DNA from: Gammaproteobacteria bacterium
Lineage (GTDB): Bacteria > Pseudomonadota > Gammaproteobacteria > JABXHR01
DNA length: 48,758 nt
Direction: 5' to 3'
NCBI GenBank assembly: GCA_013373515.1
Contig: JABXHR010000021.1
Span: 1-48,758 of the forward strand
Shown in pieces: positions 2,126 to 10,464 of the stretch (positions within the stretch are counted from its first letter, which is position 1; the number at the start of each line of letters is the position of its first letter). Made by a program: the position numbers and the translations under genes. Below the pieces are notes generated by a model that worked only from the letters and a program-made list of their open reading frames with translations, was not told where the DNA came from and searched no databases.

Positions 2126-4426
2126 TTAGAACAAATGCATCTGCGCATCATTGATCATTGAGAATGTCGTGCTTTGTAACAGGGCGTCGGCAATTGGTGC
2201 CAGTTGGCGAGTGGCGTAGTGTTGGTAATCGATGGCTTGGCTGAGATGCCCAATCGGTTCGGGGCCAGCGAGCGTAATGAGGTACTGAATTTTGCGTCCC
2301 GGCTTGGGTATTTTTCGGGCGGCTTGTATGTGCGGCGGCACGTTTTTTTGATAGCTCTCAAGGGGCCGGCGAATGCGCTTGCTGTAAATCAGTTCTGAAT
2401 CGAGTTGTCCATCGATCAGCAGTTGGTAGATGTCGCGACAATACTGCTCGATGGGTTGGTCGTGAAATACCCGTTGCAATAGTTCGCGCTGGAAAGATTT
2501 TGCAAGTGGTGTCCAATCTGAGCGAACCGATTCAAGTCCCTTGATGACAAGCTGTTCCTCGGGGCCTGAGTTGACCAATCCAGCGTAGCGTTTTTTGGAG
2601 CCTGCCTCGCTGTGGCGAATTGTAGGCATCCAAAATCGGTCGAAAAGTGTTTCGAATTCCAGCTCAAGATGGCTGGTTAATCCCATGGTGTCGCGCAAGG
2701 TTTGTTGCCAATGTCGATTGATATCGCATTTGAGCTTTTCGCCATATTCAAGGCAGTGTTCGCGCGTCCAATCCTCGGGCAGGGTGACGAACAGTGAATC
2801 CGTGTCGCCGTAAATGACCGCATGCCCGAGGGCTTCAAACCACGCCTTGCTGGTGGTGATGATTTCCTTGCCGCGCAGGGTGATGCTACTGGCGAGTTTC
2901 GGATCAAAAAAGCGGCAGCCGCTCGAGCCCAGCACGCCGTAAAACGAATTCATGATGATTTTGATCGCTTGAGAGAGTGCTGCATTGCCCTCGGCTTTGG
3001 CTTGATCACGCAACTGCCAGAGCTCGGCGATAATGGCGGGCAGTAAGGCCGCATCTCGCCTGAAGTAGGCGCCTTTGAATCCGGGGACGGTGTTGTCGGT
3101 CTCGTCAGTTAACCCGGCCGGATCGATTAAAAAGGTGCGAATAATCGACGGGTATAGGCTTTTGAAGTCCAGCAACATCACATTGCGATAGAAGCCCGGC
3201 GTCGAGTCGAGCACATAGCCACCGGGGCTGTTCTCAGCCTGCGGTAGCTGCGCCATACTGCGGGCCACTTTGCCGTGACGGTGCAAGCGCGGCAGGTACA
3301 AAAAATCGAATGCGGCCACTGAGCCGCCGATGCGATCAATGGCCAATCCCGTCATTAAACTGCGTTGCCGCGCGAAGTTGAATAGATCGGCTTTTTCAAA
3401 AATGCGGCTGACCAGTACACAGTCTTTTAGGTTGTACTCGGCTAACTGCTGTGGTGCGTGTTTGAATTGCTCGGCGATGGTTTTGACCTTATCGAGACCA
3501 TGACTCTGAATGAGTTTGCGCTCACCCAGCAATTCGTGGGCGACATTGTCGAGGGCAAACGATTCAAACTGCCAAAAGGCAGCGCGCAATAAATCGACGC
3601 CATCCAAGACCGCACGTCCAGGCACTCGGGCGACACGCGGCTGTCCGGCATTGCGCGCCTCCAGCACGCGGGCGTTTTGTTCGTGTCGACCGATGGCAAA
3701 CGGCACGCCGAGTTCTTGGCATTTTTTCTCTAAGAATCGAAGATCAAAATCGATGACATTCCAGCCGATCAGTAGATCTGGGTCGTGCTCACAAATCCAC
3801 GCGAACGCCTGTTGTAGCGTATTGCGCTCGCTATGACACCATTCGATCATGGTGTTAGTGTCGGACGCCTCATTGGGGGCGGAACGCGCCATAAAGACGC
3901 AGCTGTCTTCACCGATTTGCACGCCGATTGATAATAACGGCGCTGGGCTTCCGAGCCCGGTTTCGATGTCTATCGACAATGCGCTAAGTGGGGTGGTGGC
4001 TTGTCCCGGTTTGAGTTGCGCGTTATGGCTCACCCAACAGCCCTTTTCAGATGCCCAGTGACCGAAAATCTCTGCTTCGCCACGAACAAAACGCTCCATT
4101 AAAAAGCGATCACTGGGCTTGATATCTGCCTCATAGGCGGCGTGTGGATAGGTGTCTGCAAAACGGTCTAAATCGCTTTGTTGGGCAAAGTAAAGCGCAT
4201 CGGCGGGCTCGCCGCTTGGGCAGCGCATGTTGGTGGTTTTGCGTTCGATGCCTTGGGTTACAAAGTTTTTTTCGACGAAACACACCGCTTTCTGGGCGGC
4301 TTGTATCACCAGAAGCGGCCCCTCTGCACTGGCGAAGAACAATCGCAGCTCGATCCCAGTTGGCGTATCGCGCCACTGGCGTTGCAGCAAAAATCCAGAC
4401 TTGGCGTGTGGTTCGGGCTGGGTCAC
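2126..4426 (-). CDS. polB: DNA polymerase II (family B)
   Basis: Family B DNA polymerase matching E. coli Pol II along its length (766 residues against 783). The N-terminal half carries the 3'-5' exonuclease with SIDIETG, then NVIDFDLRFLEKK and YNLKDC. The polymerase half has LDFKSLYPSIIRTFLIDP (motif A), QAIKIIMNSFYGVLG (motif B) and YGDTDS (motif C), followed by GSKKRYAGL. The extreme C-terminus is QMHLF, a sliding-clamp binding peptide equivalent to the E. coli QLGLF end. The open frame continues to a TTG at 4468, but the GTG at 4426 gives an N-terminus closer to the E. coli start, so I prefer it; neither has a strong Shine-Dalgarno. Pol II acts in translesion synthesis and replication restart. 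I see no LexA-type box upstream. Confidence 0.95.
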   Translation of the reverse strand: MTQPEPHAKSGFLLQRQWRDTPTGIELRLFFASAEGPLLVIQAAQKAVCFVEKNFVTQGIERKTTNMRCPSGEPADALYFAQQSDLDRFADTYPHAAYEADIKPSDRFLMERFVRGEAEIFGHWASEKGCWVSHNAQLKPGQATTPLSALSIDIETGLGSPAPLLSIGVQIGEDSCVFMARSAPNEASDTNTMIEWCHSERNTLQQAFAWICEHDPDLLIGWNVIDFDLRFLEKKCQELGVPFAIGRHEQNARVLEARNAGQPRVARVPGRAVLDGVDLLRAAFWQFESFALDNVAHELLGERKLIQSHGLDKVKTIAEQFKHAPQQLAEYNLKDCVLVSRIFEKADLFNFARQRSLMTGLAIDRIGGSVAAFDFLYLPRLHRHGKVARSMAQLPQAENSPGGYVLDSTPGFYRNVMLLDFKSLYPSIIRTFLIDPAGLTDETDNTVPGFKGAYFRRDAALLPAIIAELWQLRDQAKAEGNAALSQAIKIIMNSFYGVLGSSGCRFFDPKLASSITLRGKEIITTSKAWFEALGHAVIYGDTDSLFVTLPEDWTREHCLEYGEKLKCDINRHWQQTLRDTMGLTSHLELEFETLFDRFWMPTIRHSEAGSKKRYAGLVNSGPEEQLVIKGLESVRSDWTPLAKSFQRELLQRVFHDQPIEQYCRDIYQLLIDGQLDSELIYSKRIRRPLESYQKNVPPHIQAARKIPKPGRKIQYLITLAGPEPIGHLSQAIDYQHYATRQLAPIADALLQSTTFSMINDAQMHLF

Positions 4427-4515
4427 AAATCGATCGCAGGGCTCAAAGAACAACAGTGTAACAATCAACCCACGAATGCAGACGGTCTGTGCGGTAGAAT
4501 CTAGCCAGCAAACCC

Positions 4516-4521
4516 AAGGAG
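4516..4521 (+). promoter_or_regulatory. Ribosome binding site deciding the sseA start
   Basis: AAGGAG at 4516-4521 directly abuts an ATG at 4522, which leaves no spacer. The in-frame GTG at 4528 sits six bases downstream, the normal distance, so initiation most likely uses that GTG. Confidence 0.65.
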
Positions 4522-4527
4522 ATGCGC

Positions 4528-5358
4528 GTGAAACTCATCGATGTTAACCAAGCCAAAGCACTCGAATCGGCGGTATTTGTGGATGCCACCTGGTGTATGC
4601 CAAACAGCGGGCAGCGCGGTCGCGACTTGTACGATGCTGCACGTATTCCAGGCGCCCGGTTTTTTGATATCGACGACGTGGCGGACAAATCGGTAGATTT
4701 GCCCCATATGCTGCCCTCTGGAAAAGTGCTTGCGGCCGCGCTTGGCGCAATGGGGATCGATCAGCACACGCCAGTGATTGCCTATGATCAAAACCGCTTT
4801 TTCGCATCGGCGCGACTTGGTTGGATGCTCAATGCGTTTGGTCATGAGCAGGTTTACGTGCTCGACGGCGGACTTGCGGCATGGCAAGCGGCAGGCGAAG
4901 TTGTTGAAACGGTTGCGCCAAGTGCTGCTCTGCCAAAAGACTACAGCGCATCACTCAATGCATTAGGCGTGGCAACACTTCGCAATATGCGCACCTTTGT
5001 GACCGACCCACATGTGCAAATTCTGGATGCAAGGCCAAAGGGGCGCTTTAATGGCGAGGTGGCAGAGCCTCGGCCCGGTCTTCGCAGTGGCCATATGCCG
5101 AGTGCCATTTGTTTACCGTTTACCGAGCTACTGCAAGCCGATGGCAAGCTTAAGGACAAAGCGGCACTAAAATCGGCGTTTGAATCGCACAATGTCGTGA
5201 TGTCAGGCCAAATGGTGACGACCTGCGGCTCGGGCGTGTCGGCGGCCGTTATCAACTTGGCGCTTGCGCAGTTTGGCATGGAAGCCCAGCTTTATGACGG
5301 CAGCTGGAGCGAGTGGGGTGCCCAAGCGGATACGCCGGTGCTGGGCGCGGGGCTGTAA
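4528..5358 (+). CDS. sseA: 3-mercaptopyruvate sulfurtransferase (two-domain rhodanese)
   Basis: A 276-residue tandem-rhodanese protein. The first rhodanese domain is non-catalytic (AYDQNRFFASARLGWML then LDGGLAAW). The second contains the catalytic loop TCGSGVSA with the active cysteine near residue 233. CGSGV(S/T)A is the loop of mercaptopyruvate sulfurtransferases, whereas thiosulfate sulfurtransferases have CRKG. The enzyme moves sulfane sulfur from 3-mercaptopyruvate onto its cysteine and then to an acceptor. The stop codon is immediately followed by the selU GTG with no spacer, and selU overlaps selD, so this is the first gene of a selenium operon. Rhodanese-type enzymes are known to bind selenium as perselenide, so selenium carriage is a reasonable inference. 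It is divergent from polB. Confidence 0.88.
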   Translation: MKLIDVNQAKALESAVFVDATWCMPNSGQRGRDLYDAARIPGARFFDIDDVADKSVDLPHMLPSGKVLAAALGAMGIDQHTPVIAYDQNRFFASARLGWMLNAFGHEQVYVLDGGLAAWQAAGEVVETVAPSAALPKDYSASLNALGVATLRNMRTFVTDPHVQILDARPKGRFNGEVAEPRPGLRSGHMPSAICLPFTELLQADGKLKDKAALKSAFESHNVVMSGQMVTTCGSGVSAAVINLALAQFGMEAQLYDGSWSEWGAQADTPVLGAGL

Positions 5359-6438
5359 GTGCATTTTAACGTTAAATTGGATCGCCGCTCGATCCGTGAA
5401 TTGATCGCAAGCGATACCCCATTGATCGATGTGCGTGCGCCGGTGGAGTTTGCGCAGGGCGCTTTGCCGCTGGCTTGTAATTTACCCTTGCTCGATGATG
5501 CTCAGCGCGAGCAAATTGGGACAGTGTATCAACAGGACGGCCGTGAGGCGGCGATCGAGCTTGGGCTAAAGCTCGCGACTTTGGATGTTCGGCAGCAGCG
5601 TGTTGAGCGCTGGCTAATGTGGCTCGACGGTCGTGAACAGCCTGCGCTGTACTGTTTTCGCGGCGGAATGCGATCCAAATTTAGCCAGCAGTGGCTGCAA
5701 GAGGCAGGCATCGATATCCCAATCATCGAAGGTGGCTATAAAGCCATCCGCCACGAGATGCTTGCTGTGCTATCTGAGCTTGCGACTTCAAAACTCATTG
5801 CCATTTCGGGGGCCACGGGTGCGGGTAAGACTGAGGTGGTCCATCAAGTGGCTTCGGCAATCGATCTTGAGGGGGCGGCCAATCACCGAGGTAGCGTGTA
5901 TGGCGGTTCGGCCGAGACTCAGCCGAGCCAGGTGGACTTCGAGCATGAGGTAGCGCGTCAGTACCTGCAACGCAGCAACTTCAACCAAATTGCCATGGAA
6001 GACGAGGGGCGGCTGATTGGCCGTGTGTCCGTTCCGAATGAGGTGTTGGCTGCGCTTAAGTCTGCGCCGATGGTGATTGTTGAGTCCTCACTCGAGGAGA
6101 GGGTGGCGCGGCTGTTTGCACAATATGTCGCTGAGACGGTCGAAAAAGATCGTAATGACCCGTATGGCGCTTTGCGGAGATTTGTTCAAAATGGACTGGA
6201 CCGTATCCAAAAGCGGCTCGGTGGCGTGCGCTATGACGCGCTATCAACGCTAAATATCAATGCCGCAGAGGCCCTTGAACGCGCTGCCGACCCAGCTGGG
6301 TACTATGAGTTTATCCAAATTTTACTGAGTGATTATTACGACCCAATGTATAGCTATCAACGATCAAAACGGGCGTCGACGGTATTGTTCAGCGGCGGCG
6401 TTGATGCGGTCGCCGATTACCTCAATCAGCAACCATGA
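5359..6438 (+). CDS. selU: tRNA 2-selenouridine synthase
   Basis: MnmH/SelU (YbbB) family, 359 residues, the usual length. It replaces sulfur by selenium in 2-thiouridine at the wobble position of certain tRNAs, via a geranylated intermediate, using selenophosphate. The N-terminal rhodanese domain has the catalytic Cys99 in YCFRGGMRS; the C-terminal P-loop domain has GATGAGKT at about 151-158, followed by NHRGSVYGG and QPSQVDFE, all typical. The GTG start at 5359 directly follows the sseA stop. Its TGA overlaps the next ATG by four bases (ATGA at 6435-6438), implying translational coupling to the gene that makes its selenophosphate. Synonym: mnmH. Confidence 0.96.
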   Translation: MHFNVKLDRRSIRELIASDTPLIDVRAPVEFAQGALPLACNLPLLDDAQREQIGTVYQQDGREAAIELGLKLATLDVRQQRVERWLMWLDGREQPALYCFRGGMRSKFSQQWLQEAGIDIPIIEGGYKAIRHEMLAVLSELATSKLIAISGATGAGKTEVVHQVASAIDLEGAANHRGSVYGGSAETQPSQVDFEHEVARQYLQRSNFNQIAMEDEGRLIGRVSVPNEVLAALKSAPMVIVESSLEERVARLFAQYVAETVEKDRNDPYGALRRFVQNGLDRIQKRLGGVRYDALSTLNINAAEALERAADPAGYYEFIQILLSDYYDPMYSYQRSKRASTVLFSGGVDAVADYLNQQP

Positions 6439-8558
6439 CTGAGCAAGCAACTCGCGATTTGGTGTTTTTGGGCGGCGGGCATACACATGCATTGGTGCTC
6501 AAACAATTTGCCATGGGCCGTCGCCCCAATGCACGGATAACGCTCATTTCTGAAAGTGTGCAAACCCCTTATTCGGGCATGCTGCCGGGCTTTATTGCAG
6601 GGCATTACAGCAGCGATGAGATCCATATCAATCTAGCCAGTCTGTGCCGTCATGTAGGCGTTCGATGGATTCATGCCACAGCCGTTGGGCTCGATCTCAC
6701 TGATCGCAAAGTGCTGCTTGGCGATGGTCGCAAGATAGCCTTTGATGTGCTTTCGATTGATATAGGCTCCACGCCAGATAATTCCATACTGGGGGCCGCT
6801 GAGCATGCACTGGGCGTCAAACCCATCGCAGCCCTTCGCGATAAGTGGCTATCCATCCTTGCCAGAACCGAGCAAGTGCAGCGCATTGCGGTGGTCGGCG
6901 CCGGGGCGGCTGGTGTGGAAATGGCCCATAGCGTTGCACATCGATTGGGCGAGAAGGCGGATGTGAGTTTGGTGTTTAACGGGGCGCGTCCGTTAAAAGG
7001 CTATCCAGATCGCACGGTGCGCACGGTTGAGCAAAGCCTTGAGGGTTACGGCATACGCCTGCATAACCATTGCCGCGTGAGCCAAATTACAGCCACGGGG
7101 TACGTCGATCAGCACGGCAAGCATAACGATGCCGACTTGGTGATGCTGTGCACACCAGCCGCAGCGCCAGCATGGCCGAGCGAGGCCGGTCTAGACACGG
7201 ATTCGCGCGGCTTTGTTGCGGTAAATGCCCAGTTGCAAAGCTTGTCGCATCCATTTGTGTTTGCGGCGGGGGATGCGGCAACCATGGTAGATGATCCTCG
7301 TCCGAAAGCGGGGGTATATGCGGTGCGCCAAGCGCCATTTCTCGCCAATAATTTGATCGCGGTATTTGCAGATCAACCGCTGAAGCCTGCCAAATTACAG
7401 CGCAATTTTCTATCGCTGCTCGCGCTGGGTGGTAAGCGCGCTGTCGGCGGGCGAGGCCCGATTAGCCTGCATGGTGATTGGGTTTGGCGTTGGAAAGATC
7501 GGATTGATCGCAAATTTATGGCGATGTTTCAGAACTTGCCACCATCGATGGCGATCCCGATGGCCAGTGAGAGCATGCGCTGTGCCGGATGTGGCAGCAA
7601 GCTTGGCCCCAGCATGCTCGGCGATACGCTCAGGCGGCTAGGTGCCGAGTTTCCAGTGGTATTTGCCAACCCTCCGGTCGAGGATGCAGCCTTGCTGTCT
7701 TTGCAGGGGGACTATCTGAAAACCATTGATGGTTTTCGCGCCTTTGCGGATGACCCCTATCGATTTGCGCGTGTGGCGACCTTGCATGCCATCAGTGATC
7801 TCTATGCCATGGGGCAGCGGCCACAGCATCTTTCGGTCTGGGCCAGTGTGCCCTTTAACCATCCTCGTCTGCAGCAACGTGATTTTGATTTGCTGATGCG
7901 CGGGGTGGTTGCGCAGTGTGCAGAGGACGGCGTTAGTTTGATCGGAGGTCATTCCACAGAGGGTGCCGAGCTACAGCTAGGGCTCACGGTGGGTGGCGCG
8001 ATCGATGGCCCCGTTTGGCCAAAGCGCTCGCTGCAGCCCGGAGATTGTTTGGTGCTGACCAAGCCGATTGGGGTGGGCACCTTGTTGGTCGCCATGATGC
8101 AAAATGAATTGCCGCCAGAGGCGGAGACAGCATTATGGGAATGGATGCTGATTAGCAATCGTCATGTGCTGGAGGCTTGCGCTGATCTGACGGTGAATGC
8201 CGCCACGGACGTGACAGGGTTTGGGTTGCTGGGTCATTTGCAAGAAATGCTCGCTGGCTCGTCACGCGCGCGTTTGCATGTCGGATCGGTACCGCAAATG
8301 CCATCGGCTGAAGCCCTCTGGCAACAGGGTATCCAAAGCACATTGGCGCCTTCGCTATTGGCTCAGGCACAACAGATCGAGGGGTTCGACATGTTGCCGG
8401 AGTCGATGCAGTTGATGTGTTGTGATCCACAAACCTCTGGGGGGTTGCTGTTGAGCATGCCTCTGGCCGATGCACAGCGTCTGCAGCAACGTTTGCCCGC
8501 GTGGATCATTGGTGAAGTAATTGGTGGCGCGGGTGCTTCTATTGAGTTTGTCGACTAA
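6435..8558 (+). CDS. selD: Fusion of FAD/NAD(P) oxidoreductase and selenide, water dikinase
   Basis: A 707-residue two-part protein. Residues 1 to about 375 are a pyridine-nucleotide oxidoreductase of the NDH-2/sulfide:quinone reductase type: GGGHTHALVL at the FAD site, SGMLPGFIAGHY, a second Rossmann fold at 153-160 (VVGAGAAG) and FAAGD at 276-280. It lacks a CxxxxC redox disulfide. Residues from about 380 onward are a complete selenide, water dikinase with CAGCGSKLGP, where Cys386 and Lys389 align with the catalytic Cys17 and Lys20 of E. coli SelD, then EDAALL, ISDLYAMG, GGHSTEGAE, DVTGFGLLGH and PQTSGGLL. The active residue is cysteine, not selenocysteine. SelD makes selenophosphate from selenide and ATP. 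The fused reductase may produce or guard the selenide; its substrate is unknown. Fusions of this kind are known in some cyanobacteria and marine bacteria. Confidence 0.93.
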   Translation: MTEQATRDLVFLGGGHTHALVLKQFAMGRRPNARITLISESVQTPYSGMLPGFIAGHYSSDEIHINLASLCRHVGVRWIHATAVGLDLTDRKVLLGDGRKIAFDVLSIDIGSTPDNSILGAAEHALGVKPIAALRDKWLSILARTEQVQRIAVVGAGAAGVEMAHSVAHRLGEKADVSLVFNGARPLKGYPDRTVRTVEQSLEGYGIRLHNHCRVSQITATGYVDQHGKHNDADLVMLCTPAAAPAWPSEAGLDTDSRGFVAVNAQLQSLSHPFVFAAGDAATMVDDPRPKAGVYAVRQAPFLANNLIAVFADQPLKPAKLQRNFLSLLALGGKRAVGGRGPISLHGDWVWRWKDRIDRKFMAMFQNLPPSMAIPMASESMRCAGCGSKLGPSMLGDTLRRLGAEFPVVFANPPVEDAALLSLQGDYLKTIDGFRAFADDPYRFARVATLHAISDLYAMGQRPQHLSVWASVPFNHPRLQQRDFDLLMRGVVAQCAEDGVSLIGGHSTEGAELQLGLTVGGAIDGPVWPKRSLQPGDCLVLTKPIGVGTLLVAMMQNELPPEAETALWEWMLISNRHVLEACADLTVNAATDVTGFGLLGHLQEMLAGSSRARLHVGSVPQMPSAEALWQQGIQSTLAPSLLAQAQQIEGFDMLPESMQLMCCDPQTSGGLLLSMPLADAQRLQQRLPAWIIGEVIGGAGASIEFVD

Positions 8559-8853: not shown

Positions 8854-10464
8854 TCACATCCTATATTTGACGTTAATCACTTCTGCCGACAGTCCAATGG
8901 CGTTGAGTTGCTCAAGCCATGCACGCTGGTGAACTTGAAGCTGATCTCCGGGACCTTTGACTTCAATAAATCGGCTCTGCCCGGCATCACTGACGGCGAA
9001 GAGATCGGGCATGCCGCTGCGAAAAGCTCGCGGGTCGAGCAGCAGTCGTTCAATTAACGTTCGCCATCGTCGGCGGTCGATCGATGCAATCGCCGCTTCG
9101 AAGCAGGCGGGCTCTAGATAGCCATTGACCCAAGCATTGTTAAATTGTTGATATTGTTCGAATAACTTAACCAGCTTAGCATTGGATGCATGACAAAATT
9201 CTGTGAGCGCGGCGTCGATAATCGCTTGTCGCTTGGTTTGGAATGACCTTGAAAACCCATCTCTGGGCCCGATTTGAAAAGGATGGTCGAATGCTCGATC
9301 GACGTCGGCATAAATTGCAGGCCACAGCGCCACGCCATAGATACTGTTAAGCAAGCGGCTTTCAACCCAATAGCCTTGCCATCCCTCCGCGGCAAGCCAC
9401 CCGATAACGTCTTGTTCGACCCGCTGCTGGTCAGTTTTATCCAAGGTGATTGCACGGCTTGGCGGTTTGTAAGGTTGCGCGCGAATCTGAGGCTCGCCGA
9501 GTGCTTTGAGTCTTCGATTATTTAGTTTGCGCCATTGGTCATGCTGGTGTGCAGTTTGGCAACGGGCTTTGAGTTTGTCGAGTTCGCTGGCGGCCATTTG
9601 AATGTGGTCTGTGGCTAAAAGGCATTGAATTCGCAGCGTCCGCGCCTCAAAGCCAGAGCAGCCCTCGAGCGATAATTGGGCAGAATTTGGATCGTCTCGC
9701 ATTTGACGGCTGGCGAGCTGGCAAAGGCCACGCTCGGCGCGGGCACGTTGTTCGGTGTTAAAGTAGCGACGCAATTCAAGCTGATACTCTTCATCATCAA
9801 TGTGTTGATTGCGCCATTCAAGGCTCAATGCTGCAAGATGCAAATGCGCTTCCAGAGACTCTCGGTTGGCATAGTAAGGTGTTGCGCTCAATGGGTATGG
9901 CGGGTAGCGCGTCAACCCCAGGGCTTCGGTGACAAAATTGGATAAGTCTTGGTAGGGACTGGCAAAAAACAGCGTCTGCACACGGCGCAAAAAATCTTGG
10001 TGATTGAGCTTTAGCAACACAAAGTTTGCGTCGGGCAGCCACTGGCTGAGCGGTTGGCTGATATCGCAATACTGTTCGCTAAGGATTTGAATCAGCTCGA
10101 CCTTGCGAAGTTTGTTTGAGAGGCCGGTGTCGAGGGTTAGCAGTTCGGCTTTGCTCGCGAGCGCGGCCAAAGTATGGAAGTCGATCTCAGGTGTGTCTTT
10201 GAGCCAGCCTAGCTTTGTAAGTCGCGTTAGGGCGATTTCAAGGTCGGCGATTTCGGCGTAGTCGAATTTGTCGGAGCGAACAATTGGCCTCGTGCGCATC
10301 CACAGTCGAACGGCGGCACATTTTGTGTCGCGGTCGAGCTGGCGCCACGTGCTGAACCACGCCTGTTCTATCTCGCTAAATAAATTGAGATATCGCGCCT
10401 GCACACCATCTAGCATGGCTTGAAAATGGTCGAGATAGTAGTAGGGCGCGAGTTCTGCTTGCAT
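8854..10464 (-). CDS. VRR-NUC domain nuclease, FAN1-like
   Basis: A 536-residue protein of the bacterial FAN1/VRR-NUC family, a structure-specific endonuclease and 5' exonuclease group linked to interstrand-crosslink repair in eukaryotes and characterised from Pseudomonas. The N-terminal portion is helical (YYLDHFQAMLDGVQARYLNLFSEIE is a typical opening). Further on are GVALWPAIYADVDRAFDHPFQ and GPRDGF. The C-terminal nuclease core has GMPDLFAV with the catalytic Asp, then FIEVKGPGDQLQVHQRAWL, the E-x-K and glutamine elements of the PD-(D/E)xK fold. The ATG at 10464 was chosen as the only conserved-looking start. The next gene upstream on the same strand encodes a PilZ protein; no functional link is evident. 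Confidence 0.88.
   Translation of the reverse strand: MQAELAPYYYLDHFQAMLDGVQARYLNLFSEIEQAWFSTWRQLDRDTKCAAVRLWMRTRPIVRSDKFDYAEIADLEIALTRLTKLGWLKDTPEIDFHTLAALASKAELLTLDTGLSNKLRKVELIQILSEQYCDISQPLSQWLPDANFVLLKLNHQDFLRRVQTLFFASPYQDLSNFVTEALGLTRYPPYPLSATPYYANRESLEAHLHLAALSLEWRNQHIDDEEYQLELRRYFNTEQRARAERGLCQLASRQMRDDPNSAQLSLEGCSGFEARTLRIQCLLATDHIQMAASELDKLKARCQTAHQHDQWRKLNNRRLKALGEPQIRAQPYKPPSRAITLDKTDQQRVEQDVIGWLAAEGWQGYWVESRLLNSIYGVALWPAIYADVDRAFDHPFQIGPRDGFSRSFQTKRQAIIDAALTEFCHASNAKLVKLFEQYQQFNNAWVNGYLEPACFEAAIASIDRRRWRTLIERLLLDPRAFRSGMPDLFAVSDAGQSRFIEVKGPGDQLQVHQRAWLEQLNAIGLSAEVINVKYRM

Follow-up and report, generated by a model that had tools for sequence, protein, structure and literature searches.

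Operons that join selD with ybbB (selU/mnmH) were described in 2005, with no gene other than selD linked to ybbB (PMC1273633), and fusions of an NADH dehydrogenase-like protein to SelD, all carrying a CxxC motif, were described in 2008 (PMC2398784). The reductase was suggested to produce the SelD substrate (PMC2432076), and among SelD fusions those with an NADH dehydrogenase-like protein are the most frequent (PMC4561486). It is still not settled how selenide gets to SelD without damage to the cell (PMC8538045). In its passages on selenium delivery, the same paper names rhodanese and 3-mercaptopyruvate sulfurtransferase (3-MST) as selenium-binding delivery candidates, citing Ogasawara 2001 and 2005, relates from the papers it cites that selenium binding in vitro has been seen with rhodaneses and with MST, and describes delivery by these proteins as debated for years and of unclear physiological relevance. 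The idea of a sulfurtransferase as selenium carrier is therefore not new.

A selenouridine operon preceded by a sulfurtransferase gene

The window, a stretch of 48,758 nucleotides from a Gammaproteobacteria bacterium (contig JABXHR010000021.1, assembly GCA_013373515.1), contains a locus with the following features:

2126 to 4468, minus strand: polB, DNA polymerase II gene, divergent; the operon promoter region lies between polB and 4528
4516 to 4521, plus strand: Shine-Dalgarno-like AAGGAG of the MST gene, 6 nt before GTG 4528, read from the sequence
4528 to 5358, plus strand: MST, an SseA-type 3-mercaptopyruvate sulfurtransferase built of two rhodanese domains, with Cys235 (CGSGVSA) as the catalytic residue and R175 and R184 as the substrate arginines
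5359 to 6438, plus strand: selU/mnmH, tRNA 2-selenouridine(34) synthase with an N-terminal rhodanese domain (YCFRGGMRS) and a P-loop domain
6435 to 6438, plus strand: ATGA stop/start overlap of selU and the fusion, read from the sequence
6435 to 8558, plus strand: reductase-SelD fusion of 707 aa, Ndh/FSP1-like FAD/NAD(P) oxidoreductase at residues 1-365 and SelD at about 379-707

The sequence confirms the head-to-tail order of MST, selU and fusion claimed in the original prediction, with the MST stop codon (TAA, 5356-5358) followed by the selU start (GTG 5359) at a 0-base gap and the selU stop codon (TGA, 6436-6438) overlapping the fusion start (ATG 6435) by 4 bases. The mechanical open reading frame of MST begins at ATG 4522, from which the residue numbers Cys235, R175 and R184 are counted; GTG 4528 is the better start because of the AAGGAG that lies 6 nt before it. 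A promoter and terminator scan of the locus gave no match above shuffled sequences. Since polB is divergent, MST, selU and the fusion very probably share one promoter in the short gap after it, and the catalytic residues of the three predicted products look intact.

The selU product scored 407.9 bits with the MnmH/SelU model NF008751 (cut-off 361) and 320.6 with TIGR03167 (cut-off 219.75). The fusion matched TIGR03169 at 427.2 bits (cut-off 310) over residues 8-365, N-terminal to SelD in a single ORF, and the selD model TIGR00476 at 237 bits (cut-off 125) over residues 379-676. TIGR04369 ('fusion_not_SelD') was the top model by score yet was rejected, reaching 457.6 against a cut-off of 700, and the true selD model passes. 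The window fusion is 36-47% identical to 33 other fusions, and the CxxC cysteines C383 and C386 and the lysine K389 are invariant across all 34, the SelD domain being of the Cys type. With its N-terminal NDH/FSP1-like FAD oxidoreductase and its Cys-type, CxxC-bearing SelD, the protein resembles the Ndh (COG1252)-SelD fusions (PMC2398784, PMC4561486) and shows no notable difference from them.

A selD above its cut-off adjoins a selU above its cut-off, as in a selenouridine (SeU) operon. The locus shares with the selD-ybbB operon (PMC1273633, PMC2432076) the position of selU beside selD, the co-transcribed arrangement and a genome without SelB above cut-off, and departs from it in two respects: its selD carries a fused reductase, a variant already known, and an MST gene precedes selU. 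No SelB above cut-off was found in the genome of the window, and selenouridine therefore seems to be all that SelD serves here; like other genomes of this type, it apparently puts selenium to use in tRNA alone. The prediction that selU and reductase-SelD form a selenium operon devoted to selenation of the tRNA wobble position is thus supported. The pair of selU and Ndh-type reductase-SelD is a known selenouridine operon, published since 2005-2008, and the MST directly before selU is its only unusual feature. It is plausible that toxic selenide would be confined within one polypeptide, the fusion.

The MST protein has 276-278 residues in two rhodanese domains, and its best curated model, the 3-MST model NF008557, scored 226.6 bits, slightly below the equivalog cut-off of 250. 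For this reason we call it MST-like and not an equivalog, a name that rests on E. coli SseA (1urh, E 3e-58) as its best solved relative and on its grouping with SseA-type proteins in the profile search. The CGSG(V/I) catalytic loop (CGSGV in both), the SseA-type substrate arginines R175 and R184, which are invariant among close MST relatives, and the EPRPGLRSGH stretch are all present. The differences from SseA-type MSTs are the score below cut-off, the position before selU, and Ser in place of Thr at 240, the sole sequence feature that sets it apart from ordinary MSTs. The ExtH rhodanese of selenite/tellurite reduction was rejected as its identity (57 bits against a cut-off of 200), the match reflecting merely the common rhodanese fold. 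The searches found no other two-domain MST in the genome, which also contains cysteine desulfurases (SufS and IscS-like) that could serve selenium or sulfur supply. TusD and TusE went undetected in this genome (G000) and in three others (G052, G190 and G026), though MnmA and SelU are present in each.

Recurrence of the selU-fusion pair

Three sets of loci were compared: the fusion loci of 369 genomes of the same class, 80 named fusion loci from GTDB, and every SelU locus in 399 Pseudomonadota genomes. A reductase-SelD fusion was found near selU in 50 of 147 distinct SelU loci, and selU lies directly upstream of the fusion in 25 loci besides that of the window, nine of them with the identical 4-base overlap. 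The coupling of selU to the fusion is real and beyond chance.

The position upstream of selU is variable. A same-strand ORF (at least 90 aa, selD included) ends within 30 bp of selU for 78 of the 147 SelU genes. In Pseudomonas-type loci this neighbour is selD, and in fusion loci the slot holds rdgC (ten loci), argininosuccinate synthase (three), or, singly, arginine decarboxylase and others, none of them a selenium gene. Because more than half of the SelU genes are tightly preceded, in fusion loci by unrelated genes, tight coupling is weak evidence here.

The survey also yielded several observations on the wider neighbourhood. The rdgC gene lies directly upstream of the selU-fusion pair, usually within 2-14 bp, in loci L118, L120, L122, L123, L125, L129, L133, L135, L145 and L148, several of them named Halieaceae or Haliea; this neighbour is conserved, although nothing obvious ties it to selenium. 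A gene for a FAN1-like VRR-NUC nuclease, located in the window at 8854-10464 on the minus strand, is also found near the pair in L094, L136, L149 and L180, three of them labelled Granulosicoccaceae, in differing orientations. In a group of non-gammaproteobacterial genomes, mostly of sample family f223, selU and the fusion lie side by side but on opposite strands and so do not form one operon (L277, L282, L285, L286, L288, L304, L308, L312, L323, L325, L329 and L331). In locus L113 of genome G039, selU is followed on one strand by genes for SelD and a TIGR03169-like reductase as separate proteins (810-2896 and 2925-4028), an unfused version of the selU-reductase-SelD operon.

Distribution of the sulfurtransferase beside selU

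An MST beside selU or selD was sought by tblastn and profile in 49 class loci, the 80 named GTDB loci and 108 phylum-sample SelU loci. This neighbourhood comparison of fusions for an adjoining rhodanese had been named beforehand as a test able to refute the original prediction, which made the sulfurtransferase a selenium carrier. MST adjoined selU in the window alone, 1 of the 147 distinct SelU loci (50 with a fusion), and in none of the 146 others, so that within the sample the carrier prediction failed this test. The contact between MST and selU is real in the sequence and recurs nowhere else in the sample, and the genes of its closest MST relatives (36-43% identity) lie away from selU and selD. 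Rhodanese genes in two other loci are not orthologs of the window MST. The one in L283 encodes a single domain and lies about 500 bp downstream of selU; the one in L183 (Limnohabitans) encodes a protein 27% identical and lies 2.5 kb upstream of a fusion that has no selU nearby.

Genome-wide co-occurrence was assessed with a profile of 13 SseA-type MSTs at E 1e-70 or better, a threshold placed in the gap that separates two groups. Among the 399 Pseudomonadota genomes, SelU occurs in 108, SseA-type MST in 162 and both in 47, against about 44 expected, which is chance level (Fisher odds ratio 1.18, p = 0.49, without correction for phylogeny); SseA-type MST is missing from 61 of the 108 genomes with SelU. 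In the other 46 genomes with both, SelU and MST are at least 29 kb apart or on other contigs. In the class sample, fusions were found in 7 of the 14 genomes with the closest MSTs versus 6 of the 75 with other two-domain rhodaneses (p = 0.0005), the sole favourable signal, which we set aside as post hoc and phylogenetically clustered, the related phylum-wide comparison of MST with SelU having given no signal.

These distributions bear directly on the carrier proposal, by which MST would hold selenium as a Cys235 perselenide and pass it to the fusion, selenide being freed only at the SelD active site. Such a role is chemically reasonable and draws on the operon position and tight coupling of MST, on its intact catalytic Cys and on the delivery candidates named in PMC8538045. 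Against this, MST is missing beside selU everywhere else in the sample and frequently from SelU genomes altogether, the window protein has no distinguishing sequence feature save Ser240, and the genome encodes NifS-like cysteine desulfurases, for which a role in donating selenium to SelD is better supported; we regard the proposal as quite improbable. As the MST precedes selU in this genome only within the sample and the two families co-occur no more than chance, there is little reason to see in it a selenium carrier, and that part of the original prediction found no support.

Interpretation of the three-gene operon

The locus is probably an ordinary selenouridine operon with which a housekeeping MST, with no dedicated selenium role, is incidentally co-transcribed. 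We prefer this reading because the selU-fusion pair recurs and MST beside selU does not, because MST and SelU co-occur no more than chance, and because the slot upstream of selU often holds unrelated genes; the absence of a selenium role for MST is what we infer from them. From what is known of these families, the reductase domain of the fusion would provide the electrons needed for reduced selenium and the SelD domain attached to it would make selenophosphate, which SelU would spend in swapping sulfur for selenium in wobble 2-thiouridine. MST, a widespread housekeeping enzyme that converts 3-mercaptopyruvate to pyruvate and a persulfide, would be present in the genome as a single copy and would have come to share the operon promoter in this lineage. 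The 0-base gap to selU and the place of MST as first gene of the operon count against an incidental association, and suggest that MST is probably co-regulated with the selenium genes.

The order to which the genome belongs is nearly unsampled, its one other family member in the comparison being 58% complete and yielding neither SelU nor fusion, and this leaves room for a lineage-specific recruitment of MST. In that event the sole MST, taken into the operon, would carry selenium (or sulfur) to both the fusion and SelU and so complete a chalcogen line from carrier to tRNA, which seems unlikely.

A role in sulfur delivery is equally as reasonable as one in selenium delivery. Yeast Tum1 and human TUM1/MPST are MSTs that act in cytosolic thiolation of the tRNA wobble uridine (PMC5372717, PMC9856076), and the window MST might likewise provide persulfide sulfur for the wobble 2-thiouridine on which SelU acts, so that the operon would link thiolation and selenation. 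Yeast TUM1 is a sequence relative of the window MST (3utn, E 1.8e-33), and searches of the genome recovered MnmA but neither of the bacterial relay proteins TusD and TusE. However, TusD and TusE are also missing from G052, G190 and G026, which have selU-fusion but no adjoining MST, and in bacteria without Tus a cysteine desulfurase can thiolate directly. With the MST-selU-fusion operon recurring nowhere in the sample, we give this role a low probability.

MST could also handle selenium-containing thiol metabolites, or oxidative or cyanide stress, in parallel with selenium use, co-expression being the sole link. MST is a general persulfide-forming enzyme and the shared promoter, deduced from the coupling, would accommodate such a function, but it has no positive support and would look the same as incidental co-transcription; we consider it very unlikely.

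An operon that named a selenide carrier would help to settle how selenide is brought to SelD, and the comparison shows that the operon of the window does not name one. The association of rhodanese or MST with selU-selD is not conserved, and genes that are plainly unrelated can also be tightly coupled upstream of selU. Because the genome's only two-domain MST sits in the operon, the locus remains usable as a test case.
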